Origin: an uncultured Clostridia bacterium
Lineage (GTDB): Bacteria > Bacillota > Clostridia > Christensenellales > Aristaeellaceae
Direction of reading: 5' to 3'
DNA: 64,000 nucleotides
Assembly (NCBI GenBank): GCA_946408995.1
Contig: CAMJUL010000001.1
Location: 51,926 to 115,925 of the forward strand
The translations under genes and the position numbers were made by a program. This document shows, piece after piece, positions 36,181 to 64,000 of the stretch. The notes below the pieces were generated by a model. That model was not told where the DNA came from and made no database searches. It was given only the letters and a program-made list of their open reading frames with translations. Position 1 is the first letter of the stretch, and the number at the start of each line of letters is the position of its first letter.

Positions 36181-37908
36181 TTAAGCCGGTTTCTTTTCTT
36201 TGGTTGAAGGTGTCGCCGTCACAGGATCGTTGAACATCGGGATGTTGATTTCTCCAACGAAGTTGAAAATGATCTCGATGTGCTGGACGTGATGACCGTC
36301 CGAATCAAATGGCGCGTAGACGATGATTTTCTGGATGAACTCGCTGACTATCGCCTGCGTGAGTTCGGGAATATCCACGTACTTGTTCACAAGCGCCATG
36401 AAGCGGTCATAGTTGTCGCTGGCTTCTTCCTGTGACGCGATCAGTTTCTCCAGATACGCGATCTCGTTGGTCAGGCTTTCCCATTCGGATTCGTATTCGG
36501 CGGACAAACGCTGATAGCGTTCCTTGGGCAGATCGCCCAGGGCGTAATCCTCGTAGACCCTGCGTTCCAGCTTATCAAGGTCTGCCAGCCGTTTCTTTGC
36601 CTGCGCCAGTTTCTTCCTATCCTGCCGGATGCTCTTTTCCTGACTCTGCCGCCTGCATTGCAGCCATTCTCCCTCGAACCGTTCCACGTCCTCCCGGACG
36701 TAGGCGGTCAAGGTGCGAATCCGTTCCAGAACAAGGCTGCGAAGAACGTTTTCCCGGATATAGTGCGCCGTGCAATCGCCCCGTCCGCTTTTGTATTGCG
36801 AGCAGACATACCGATCCTGTTTTCCTTCGCTTTCCTGGCGAGAACAGAAGTGAAGCTTGCTTCCGCAGTCGGCGCAGAAGATCAGGCCCGAAAAGAAACC
36901 TTTCTGGGCTTCTCTGTGAACCGGACGATGCCTGATCTTCCGCAACTCCTGTACCCGTTCCCACTGTTCCAGCGAAACGATGGCTTCCTGGGTATCGGGG
37001 AAAACGCAGATGTTTTCCTCTTTATTCGGCTGCCGTTTCTTCAGCTTATAGGATTTGGAAAAGGTTTTGAAATTGCAGGTACAGCCGGTGTATTCCTTCC
37101 GGTTCAGGATTCCGGTCACGGAACTGTCAGTCCACCGATAGGGGTGATCCGGCAGCGGTTTGCCATGACGCTTCAAGTAAAGTGTGCGTACCGTCAGAAC
37201 ATGATCCGCTTCCAGGATGCGGGCAATGCTTTCCGGTCCTTTTCCTTCCAGTACCAAGTCGAAGATACGCTTTACCACAGGCGCGGCTTCTTCATCCACA
37301 ATCCAGTGCCCTTTTTGATCCGGGTCATCCAGGTAGCCATAGGGCGGACGTCCGATGTGCTTCCCGCTGGTTCCCTTTGCTTTCACGATGGAGCGTACTT
37401 TACGGCTGGTGTCTTTCGCATAGAAATCGTTGAAAAGATTTCTTACGGGGGTAAAGTCATTGTCCCCTCGTGCGGAATCCACGCCGTCGTTTACAGCGAT
37501 GAATCGAATATCGTTGTCAGGAAATTCGAGTTCCGTATAGCGGCCTACTTGCAGGTAGTCGCGTCCGAAACGGCTCATGTCCTTGACGATGATGATTCCG
37601 ACCTTGCCTTCGCTTACCAGGGAAAGAAGCTCCTGCATGGCGGGACGGTTGAAGTTAGTGCCGGTGTAACCGTCATCGACGAACATGCGGATGTTGGGAA
37701 AACCTTGCTCGGTGGCGTATTTCATCAAGAGAGCGCGCTGGTTCTGAATGGAATTGGATTCGCCGTCCAGGTCGTCTTCATTGGAAAGACGGCAGTATAA
37801 CGCGGTAATCAATTGCTGACCCATTTCATTTGCCTCCTTCTTTGGATCAGCCGACAGTACCGCAGTGCTCGTGTTTATCATATCACAATCTGACTCATTT
37901 GTCATCAT
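36181..37908 (-). CDS. Large serine recombinase (resolvase + recombinase + zinc ribbon + coiled coil)
   Basis: [57 protein letters not shown]; true start may be [14 protein letters not shown] (37824). Confidence 0.95.
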
Positions 37909-38189
37909 GCGAATACAGCCTTTTGGGTCAGGGGATCATTGAACAGGAGGCGTTTCACTTTCCCTTGAAGATGCTCTGAACCGGAATATCTGGAATAAAC
38001 AAAAAACTCCGTTTTGCCGAATTTCTGGTAATCGATATCAAATAACGCGTTATTTGCTTCTCGTTTCTTTTTCCAATATTCCAACTGTTCCTTCGGCGGC
38101 TCGTCATGAACCTCATACACAGAATACAAATCCCAATGGCATTCTTCCAGTTCGGAAGAACAATCCGGGAAATATGTTTCTTCGTTCAC
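37905..38189 (-). CDS. Small hypothetical protein preceding the recombinase
   Basis: 94 aa ORF overlapping the recombinase ORF start. Confidence 0.5.
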
Positions 38190-38757
38190 AAAATCACTTC
38201 CTTATATGTTGGTATAAAATAAAATTTCCCTATCGTACTCTTTTCAGTCCTATTTGCTGCCCGCCCCCGGACTGATCGGGAACATCCCAGCCTGCGATTG
38301 GTTCACATCATAACCTCTCGGCTCCCCGCGTTCCGCCGGGCTGCCCTCATTGTCTGCGACGGCCCACGCTTTCGCGCTTCAACGCTCGGACTGTGACTGG
38401 ACAGAAGTATCATTATGGTCATACAAATATCATGGCAAGCGAGTGGCACCACACCACCCGTTTTGTTCGCTGTGGATCGCTCACTGAGTTCTTTCAGGTC
38501 ATGGCGGCAGTTTACGGGTCGCTCCATCTGTATGGAATGTAACTGGAATGCTGCGTATGAAATTGTAATTGAACATTTTTGAATTATCATAAATGATAAT
38601 TTTTCTGTTCGATGCCATTATAGCGCTGGATTCTGCTCTTGTCAAGCTGAAAATTATCAAAACAGATAATTTTTCTGTTGAAAAATTCTGCTCATGTCTG
38701 TATACTATGAACGGGGCTGTTGTTTCAGGGAAAACTGACAGAAAGAATGGGAAGAAT

Positions 38758-39636
38758 ATGAAGGTTGGAGACAAAATCAAAAGAATCCGCCAGTTCCGGG
38801 GCATGACGCAGGCGGAATTGGGGAGAAAGCTGGATATGGGAGATACGTCCCAGGCTCGGATCGGCCAATATGAAATTGGGTTCAGAACGCCGTCGAAAGA
38901 ACTGCTGGACAAGATGGCGAAGGCGTTGGATGTGTCCCCCAACGCGCTGTATGATACGACTGGCAGCAACACGACCGAATTGATGGAACTGTTCTTCTGG
39001 CTGGAAGAAGAAAACCCTGGCCTTATGCACGTTTTCCAGATGAAACGGATTCCCGGCGAAAGAGTGGATACCACCGAGGATATCAATGTATATTACCACG
39101 ATAACGCCTATTGGCCCGCCCATGCACCCCATGGATTCTGGCTGAGATACGGTTCCTTCCTGGATGATTGCATGACGGAATGGGCTTTCCGGCAGCATGA
39201 ACTGCGGATTGGTCTGATCACAAAGGAAGAATACTTTGAGTGGAAGATCAATTGGCCTGAAACAAGCGACGACTGTGGAAAGAGAATCCCTTATAAGGAC
39301 TGGCGGAAGCAGCCGGAAGAAGAACGTCAGAAGAAGGAACTGGATACCCTTCGCAGTTTGCTTCCCAAACGGGACAATGATCTCGACGCCCTGCCCAATC
39401 TTCAGCGCCTTTCCGACGAACAGCTTGCGCCGCTGGTGCCTGATTTGCTGGAATGGCTCCGTGATCCGCAAAACCGAATGGCGCGTTATGTCGGCGATCT
39501 GTTGGGGGAACGGCGGGAAATGATGATCCCCATCGTGGAAAAGATCATGGCAGGGGAAGATGAAGAACTAAAATTTGGTATTCGGATGGAATTGATTCCT
39601 CGGATGGAAAAATGGGTGTGGAAAATCCGATACTGA
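38758..39636 (+). CDS. XRE-family HTH regulator with C-terminal extension
   Basis: MKVGDKIKRIRQFRGMTQAELGRKLDMGDTSQARIGQYEIGFRTPSKELLDKMAKALDVSPNALY. Confidence 0.85.
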   Translation: MKVGDKIKRIRQFRGMTQAELGRKLDMGDTSQARIGQYEIGFRTPSKELLDKMAKALDVSPNALYDTTGSNTTELMELFFWLEEENPGLMHVFQMKRIPGERVDTTEDINVYYHDNAYWPAHAPHGFWLRYGSFLDDCMTEWAFRQHELRIGLITKEEYFEWKINWPETSDDCGKRIPYKDWRKQPEEERQKKELDTLRSLLPKRDNDLDALPNLQRLSDEQLAPLVPDLLEWLRDPQNRMARYVGDLLGERREMMIPIVEKIMAGEDEELKFGIRMELIPRMEKWVWKIRY

Positions 39637-39661
39637 ACGCGCCTCCAATACGAAGAAGATT

Positions 39662-39721
39662 GTTATGGATAGTCAATACGGATGGGTGAAAGCCGCGGAT
39701 CGACTACCATGGAAAGCTTGA
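39662..39721 (+). pseudogene. Possible IS-transposase N-terminal remnant
   Basis: IVMDSQYGWVKAADRLPWKA*, resembles N-termini of IS5/IS1182-type transposases. Confidence 0.25.
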
Positions 39722-39810
39722 GAAATGCAAGATCAGCACTCCATAAATAACATAAAACACAAACTTTGACAAAATTGCCCATGAGCAGGAAGAAAACGGG
39801 GACACGCTGT

Positions 39811-63226: not shown

Positions 63227-63282
63227 ATGCTTTCCTTTCCGCCGTATAGATCGGCTTTCAAATTGATGTTTGGGTATAGAAA

Positions 63283-63316
63283 AAGCCGTCAGGCTTGAAA
63301 TCTTTCCTGACGGCTT
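63283..63316 (-). terminator. Rho-independent terminator
   Basis: AAGCCGTCAGG ... CCTGACGGCTT perfect 11-bp stem, T-run on minus strand. Confidence 0.8.
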
Positions 63317-63343
63317 GCCGAGGTTATGTATTTGTGCTATCCT

Positions 63344-63694
63344 TTATGTGAAGATGATCTCCCGGAAGATCACTTCTTCCGCTTGGGCTTTGCAAGCGTT
63401 CATGATGCCGACCCACCTCAGCTGATCGGCAGCTTTGAGCGCTTCTGTGGCTCCAGCAGCTTTCGCTAATGCGGGAACAATTGCTTCCAGCCTACTTTGG
63501 GCGGCGTCCTCCGTTTCGATCAAGTGTTCAAACAAGGTCCCGTTCTGAACCATGAGACCAAACAGAACCGGACGATGCTCCCGCAGATACTCCCTCCGCA
63601 TCCGGCCATACTTGCCGATAGAACGGGTGGTATCGAATCCAACTACGACATTGGGGATCAGGTAACCGTTCTCTTCGTGATAGGTGATATCCAT
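63344..63694 (-). CDS. TnpV-like transposon-encoded protein
   Basis: MDITYHEENGYLIPNVVVG...SIGKYGRMRREYLREHRPVLFGLMVQNGTLFEHLIETEDAAQSR. Confidence 0.75.
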   Translation of the reverse strand: MDITYHEENGYLIPNVVVGFDTTRSIGKYGRMRREYLREHRPVLFGLMVQNGTLFEHLIETEDAAQSRLEAIVPALAKAAGATEALKAADQLRWVGIMNACKAQAEEVIFREIIFT

Positions 63695-63949
63695 TCTGTA
63701 CCTCCTTGTTACTCTCCGATGCTTGATTTTACTCGATTTCTTTGCCATGAGCACTGCGGTCTGTCGGCTGTAAATCAAGCGGTTCAGAATGGTTCCTTAT
63801 CACCTCTTACTCCTGGCTGCCGGTTCGGATTCCTTCCCGGCCGGGAACATTCCTGAAGGCGGGCGTTTTGAACGCGAGGATGGGAACCGGGGCGGTTAGC
63901 CGGTCCGGCACATGCCCTTTCTATGGATCCCTGTTACCGCTTACGCTTA

Positions 63950-64000
63950 ATCGGGTAGGAGGGGGTGGCTAACCCCCGTCCTCCCACACCACCGCTCATG
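63950..64000 (-). mobile_element. 3' end of a group II intron (domain V/VI), remainder beyond the window
   Basis: Minus strand CATGAGCGGTGGTGTGGGAGGACGGGGGTTAGCCACCCCCTCCTACCCGAT, the usual ltrA-downstream DV/DVI sequence ending in CCCGAT. Confidence 0.75.

Follow-up and report, generated by a model that had tools for sequence, protein, structure and literature searches.

Integrative and conjugative elements (ICEs) of Bacteroides carry polysaccharide-utilization loci (PULs), and mobile loci for glycan use are well described in Bacteroidetes; for the ATP-binding cassette (ABC) transporter and regulator loci of Gram-positive gut and rumen bacteria, the vehicle has seldom been identified. Among Firmicutes, the lactococcal sucrose and alpha-galactoside elements Tn5276 and Tn6098 are integrative carriers of sugar-utilization genes, and they are full ICEs with tyrosine integrases that serve simple sugars, unlike the integrative and mobilizable element (IME) described here. 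That element lies in a 64,000-nucleotide stretch of DNA, hereafter the window, from an uncultured Clostridia bacterium of the family Aristaeellaceae (GenBank assembly GCA_946408995.1, contig CAMJUL010000001.1, forward-strand positions 51,926 to 115,925) and, like the Bacteroides ICEs, represents horizontal carriage of glycan-use genes by an integrative element. It differs from them in phylum, transporter type, recombinase and relaxase, and the Bacteroides elements are self-transmissible. ImmeDB catalogues IMEs with serine integrases, mostly from Firmicutes (184 IME cases), as well as MOBQ relaxases, and its mobile PULs are 47 SusC/SusD loci of the Bacteroidetes type (PMC6907783), whereas the window cargo is of the Gram-positive ABC/YesMN type; PUL exchange between Bacteroidota has also been noted (PMC13188876).

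The window element most resembles IMEs of the Tn4451/Tn4453 type, which combine a TnpX-like recombinase carrying DUF4368 with a relaxase of their own, no type IV secretion system (T4SS), a 2-bp core and low-specificity integration (PMC5704250). The Tn4451 relaxase is MobV (TnpZ; PMC5704250), whereas that of the window element is MobQ. Unlike Tn4451, the window element has a 20-kb sugar cargo in place of a resistance gene, a ParM module and a preference for a palindromic repeat. We take Tn4451 also to have a TnpV gene, as the window element does, and its core to be GA rather than the CT/AG found here. Because the relaxase type differs, as presumably does the core dinucleotide, we do not place the window element in the Tn4451 family.

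We find that positions 36085-63814 very probably constitute a complete IME with a variable cargo slot, inserted at a secondary site in this host, whose genome is a 3.5-Mb draft of 129 contigs (the contig, C1, is 115,925 bases long and ends at window position 64000). The following features define its extent:

36085-63814: whole IME, 27.7 kb, ends placed to the single base
36085-36086: attL core dinucleotide CT, left end; CT is common to attL and attR in the window and in two sister elements, G235 and G209
63813-63814: attR core dinucleotide CT, right end of the element
35419-36086, + strand: 5' part of a host gene (secreted protein of unknown function), left flank
63815-63895, + strand: 3' part of the same host gene, right flank, running in frame to the stop codon

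Backbone homology breaks off abruptly at 36084/36085 with two other elements (G235 and G209) and at 63814/63815 with four. Joining 35419-36086 to 63815-63895 restores a single in-frame open reading frame (ORF) of 250 amino acids, and unbroken homologues in G014 (40-41% identity), G002 (37%) and G001 (33-34%) span the junction when aligned, as with GSDAFP versus GSDSFP just past it. The rejoining of the gene halves and the unbroken homologues together indicate a complete element and an assembly that holds together at each end. The core, CT on the window strand, reads AG on the other, and the joined element ends form a near-palindrome in which 17 of 22 positions match (none of 10,000 shuffles reached 17). 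An initial annotation, made from the sequence alone, had recognized one element but placed it at 36181-64000; it had also proposed to find attL and attR by comparison with an empty site. Sister elements and the split gene located both ends, and DNA comparison within the genus gave no usable same-locus empty site. Because the genes to the left of the element follow no conserved order among congeners, the split gene was compared at the protein level.

Genes were called by profile searches (Pfam and NCBIfam) of the window ORFs and RNAs by Rfam, giving a backbone of two modules, a recombinase end and a mobilization end:

36181-37908, - strand: large serine recombinase (LSR), TnpX-like, 575 amino acids (Pfam Resolvase, Recombinase, Zn_ribbon_recom and DUF4368)
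37905-38189, - strand: small conserved backbone ORF upstream of the LSR, 82-85% identical in two sister elements
38308-38416, - strand: pemK-type RNA motif upstream of the LSR operon (RF02913, 40.7 bits)
38758-39636, + strand: XRE-type regulator, read directly from the sequence; final backbone gene ahead of the cargo slot
59423-61246, - strand: MobQ relaxase (PF03389, 1.4e-86; NCBIfam MobQ above cut-off)
61380-61432, + strand: probable oriT, a hairpin plus the nic-like TAAGTGCGCCCT at 61408 (Gram-positive nic-site consensus)
61471-63226, - strand: stretch holding DUF3847, an ORF at the ParR position and ParM-like actin
61471-61764, - strand: DUF3847 protein (Pfam DUF3847, below cut-off)
62273-63226, - strand: ParM, actin-like (Pfam ALP_N and MreB-like_C)
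63344-63778, - strand: TnpV (PF14198, 6.6e-34)

The best solved relative of the LSR is TnpX (2mhc, E 1.9e-38), and MobQ has the nicking enzyme 4ht4 as a structural relative. The nic-like 12-mer is identical in all four elements compared and adjoins a hairpin with a z-score of -3.4; the Gram-positive nic consensus used for the oriT call is published (PMC10333310). Recombinase, relaxase, ParM and TnpV are all open frames, whereas the final mobQ codons differ from those of the sister elements. Profile searches of the ORFs scanned across 36-64 kb found no T4SS, coupling-protein or replication-initiator family. The element thus has an integrase, a relaxase with a probable oriT and discrete ends with a short core repeat, and it has no T4SS of its own; an ICE would carry its own conjugation pore. 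These profiles bear out the recombinase, MobQ and TnpV calls of the initial annotation, and the nic consensus beside the hairpin supports its oriT. Its DUF3847 protein was found at a subthreshold Pfam score, and of its ParM/ParR-like pair ParM has an actin profile whereas the 166-amino-acid ORF at the ParR position matched no family. The ORF at 37905-38189 likewise had no Pfam or NCBIfam match.

The same backbone recurs elsewhere with different cargo, as the initial annotation had suggested looking for. Both modules are present in G235 and G209 in the same relative orientation as in the window, the recombinase module (36084/36085-39634) matching at 93-95% DNA identity and the mobilization module (59475-63814/63815) at 88-91%. 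The modules stand 23.6 kb apart in G235 (JAFXZO010000086.1, a sheep rumen metagenome-assembled genome, MAG), where the slot holds a pectin locus with GH88/105, GH28, pectinesterase-GDSL, GH95, GH43, DUF5696 and ABC transporter genes. They stand 19.3 kb apart in G209 (JAFSKN010000047.1, a goat reticulum MAG), where it holds HmaA, HmaB, HmaC, GajA and GajB together with a metallophosphoesterase-type effector gene. The mobilization module of G158 adjoins a DNA methylase (PD-Lambda-5_B profile) and a metallophosphoesterase, a methylase/defence-like set, and G314 has the right end alone. In three elements (window, G235 and G209) the slot opens right at the stop codon of XRE, a gene 93-95% identical in DNA in the two sister elements, and homology ends at that codon in each. 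Its far end, visible in four elements, is the mobQ 3' end every time. The slot lies between the convergent 3' ends of the two genes, and its content differs in every copy. IMG/VR held four LSR relatives, at only 45-63% identity, and no MobQ relative; plasmid records held no relative of either protein at 60% identity or above.

The backbone has been shared between genera. We compared the window genome with carriers in another genus of the same family, using rpoB as a core-gene control. In DNA, backbone genes are 86-94% identical to those of the other-genus elements. For RpoB, protein identity is 82-83% and identity at four-fold degenerate sites 66-69%; the corresponding values are 95-96% and 84% for the recombinase (95-96% in G235 and G209), 87-89% and 76-79% for MobQ, and 93-95% and 73-78% for ParM (93-95% in the sister elements). 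The backbone is thus closer across genera than RpoB, about as close as among the other-genus carriers themselves, which indicates horizontal sharing and supports the earlier suggestion of a horizontally mobile glycan-utilization island. The two nearest named LSR records are Clostridia MAGs from goat and sheep rumen or reticulum; together with the bovine rumen origin of Aristaeella lactis (below), they make the window host most likely a ruminant member of the Clostridia.

Sister elements abut a palindromic repeat. In G235 and G209 at both ends, and in G158 and G314 at the right end, the element adjoins half of GGGGGAAACC-n-C-n-CTTTGG/CCAAAG-n-G-n-GGTTTCCCCC, the left half in G235 departing slightly from the palindrome. 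Counted as full palindromes with at most three mismatches, copies number 21 in G235, 51 in G209, 43 in G158 and 35 in G314, with none in the reversed-sequence control. Within the genus of the window, the window genome (G000) has 1, three congeners have 0-1 and a fourth has 10. Many copies share the extension ACCCCCTTCCGAGAAAGC, which marks the palindrome as a REP-like dispersed repeat; it was also met in G173 and L214-L222. The window insertion site has no dyad (5 of 22 positions), and insertion in a coding gene is read as use of a secondary site.

The slot in the window holds transporters, regulators and carbohydrate-active enzymes side by side, a PUL of the Gram-positive type:

39811-40930, - strand: radical SAM/SPASM gene, frameshifted near 40290-40301 (Radical_SAM and SPASM in two overlapping frames)
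40946-42892, - strand: GtaA six-hairpin/DUF4965-type protein (DUF5127/DUF4964; PF16335, 4.6e-115)
42925-46076, - strand: sugar ABC transporter A, two permeases and a binding protein (BPD_transp_1, SBP_bac_8)
46151-48944, - strand: YesN response regulator and YesM histidine kinase (Pfam)
48979-50097, - strand: GH105 unsaturated uronyl hydrolase (GH88/GH105; PF07470, 3.1e-79; 3qwt GH105, 2.4e-70)
50187-51197, - strand: GH130 phosphorylase/mannosidase (PF04041, 8.6e-44)
51218-51832, - strand: SGNH/GDSL hydrolase (PF13472, 2.6e-8)
51875-55283, - strand: sugar ABC transporter B, a binding protein and two permeases (Pfam)
55510-57877, + strand: LacI regulator and FAD-dependent oxidoreductase (Pfam)
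57986-59125, - strand: chimeric ORF at the right cargo edge, an AAA ATPase N-terminal half with a GH43-type protein tail

Every component of the sugar module named in the initial annotation (two ABC transporters, YesMN, LacI, GH105, GH130, SGNH, DUF4965 and FAD oxidoreductase) was recovered by profile; the frameshifted radical SAM/SPASM gene and the chimeric ORF had been missed. The GH105 enzyme suggests use of unsaturated uronate oligosaccharides from pectin and the GH130 enzyme, whose structural relatives are TM1225 (1vkd) and the mannooligosaccharide phosphorylases 4udg and 5ayd, suggests mannosides; since the two indicate different substrates, we claim no single one. The GtaA/DUF4965-type protein has copies at 81-82% amino acid identity on contig C7 of the same genome and in G002, and the radical SAM/SPASM gene has unbroken homologues in G008 (C102) and G030 (C34).

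Residues 1-216 of the chimeric ORF are 77.8% identical to the start of a 624-amino-acid AAA ATPase on an Aristaeella lactis plasmid (NZ_CP069422.1), where that gene sits in a kinase/phosphatase/FHA operon; A. lactis, a bovine rumen isolate, is the closest isolate relative for this cargo-edge gene. Residues 218-355 are 52% identical to the C-terminal end region of an open frame of 1105 residues on contig C35 of the same genome, which we read as GH43-type by inspection rather than from a profile. We interpret the chimeric ORF as what is left of a previous cargo that the sugar locus interrupted. A 6-kb part of the cargo, comprising transporter A and YesMN, has a chromosomal counterpart in G034 at 52-84% protein identity (transporter A is syntenic there at 73-84%), an operon flanked by genes that we read from their frames as recG-like and polC-like, and a similar ABC-YesMN set occurs in G029. 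Within the stretches fetched around each operon, tblastn found no backbone genes. The initial annotation had allowed that its proposal would fail if the cluster were syntenic in relatives without recombinase and mobilization genes; only this 6-kb part is, and it points to a chromosomal source for that part while leaving the element ends unaffected. G+C content is 55% in the cargo, 50% in the backbone and 58% in the host. No fixed sequence motif was visible at the slot edges. An imperfect direct repeat (77 bp, 79%) lies at both edges of the sugar locus (40908-40984 and 57895-57969) and contains the 3' end of the GtaA/DUF4965-type gene; it may be a capture scar.

Several points weigh against reading 36085-63814 as a mobile IME. 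Every backbone-carrying genome is a draft assembly, and the titles of two name them as MAGs; parts of the element are decaying, as a frameshift in one gene at the cargo edge and the chimeric make-up of another show; and just one insertion of the element at a non-palindromic site is known. The strongest alternative, though an unlikely one, is that the element is real but is now a fixed, decayed remnant: the broken cargo-edge genes, the divergent last mobQ codons and the secondary integration site would all fit, but the recombinase, MobQ, ParM and TnpV frames remain open, the first three of them conserved at 87-96%, the nic site does not vary and the core dinucleotide matches at both ends. We regard an integrated plasmid or ICE as improbable, given that no replication initiator or T4SS matched among the scanned ORFs and that every flanked copy has defined recombinase att ends, even though ParM/ParR-like genes are plasmid-like and MobQ relaxases are common on plasmids. 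That two separate mobile elements flank a native sugar locus by chance, a refuting outcome that the initial annotation had named and that the chromosomal ABC-YesMN sets of G034 and G029 and a cargo G+C nearer to the host than to the backbone might suggest, is scarcely credible. G235 and G209 carry the two modules as a pair, oriented to each other as here, and the outermost flanks are halves of one gene, which refutes this alternative barring a contig misjoined at each end.

For a mobile IME, the TnpX-like recombinase would cut and join at the 2-bp CT core, releasing a circle with a near-palindromic attP that the ParM-like actin presumably stabilizes. MobQ would nick oriT, and the DNA would enter a new cell through the conjugation machine of another element, a borrowing expected of an element that lacks type IV secretion genes. 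In the related genus the element integrates at the palindrome center; in the window host, nearly devoid of the repeat, it took a secondary site in a coding gene, with the slot between XRE and mobQ here filled by the Gram-positive-type PUL. Recombinase excision and integration, relaxase nicking and transfer through a helper pore are established behavior of these families (PMC5704250), from which the excision, MobQ nicking and helper transfer predicted for this element follow. More broadly, and with a little less than even confidence, we propose a modular platform whose backbone lands in the centers of REP-like palindromes and whose dedicated slot, set between two convergent backbone genes, swaps entire loci for plant glycans with islands of anti-phage defence; rumen Clostridia would thus trade feeding niche and phage resistance on one vehicle.

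Two points are unusual: a single slot that exchanges sugar cargo for defence cargo, and a target that is palindromic; we know of no such exchange with defence systems in Tn5276/Tn6098-type ICEs. A literature search of partial coverage found nothing joining 'polysaccharide utilization' with 'integrative and mobilizable', which is weak evidence of novelty. For the present element the whole vehicle is delimited, the landing site that it prefers has been identified and sister slots hold a pectin locus or stacked defences, so that movement of fibre-degrading ability between rumen genera becomes directly testable. With its defined palindromic attB, the recombinase is also a possible tool for integrating DNA into these hosts, which are poorly tractable.

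The defence cargo of G209 (contig C73, L188) stacks Hma (A, B and C) and Gabija (A and B) on one mobilizable element. The RF02913 motif recurs at the equivalent place in sister elements (L064 9455-9564 and L065 9497-9606, 49-51 bits); no pemK toxin gene was identified beside it in the three sister elements, and the RNA possibly regulates the recombinase. Recombinases 63-65% identical to that of the window have tRNA genes directly downstream (L066 and L070), suggesting that other clades of the family use tRNA-adjacent sites. The group II intron reported at the right end was not found by Rfam; a 54-bp multicopy repeat occupies 63946-64000, beyond attR, and we rejected it as part of the element. 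Ten other contigs carry it at 98-100%, usually near a contig end, and many more at ~85%; it is a high-copy repeat that breaks the assembly. The A. lactis plasmid operon (L242 9191-27053) encodes DUF4011, protein kinases, FHA, a 4Fe-4S protein, the AAA ATPase and a phosphatase, and is a candidate defence or signalling system.

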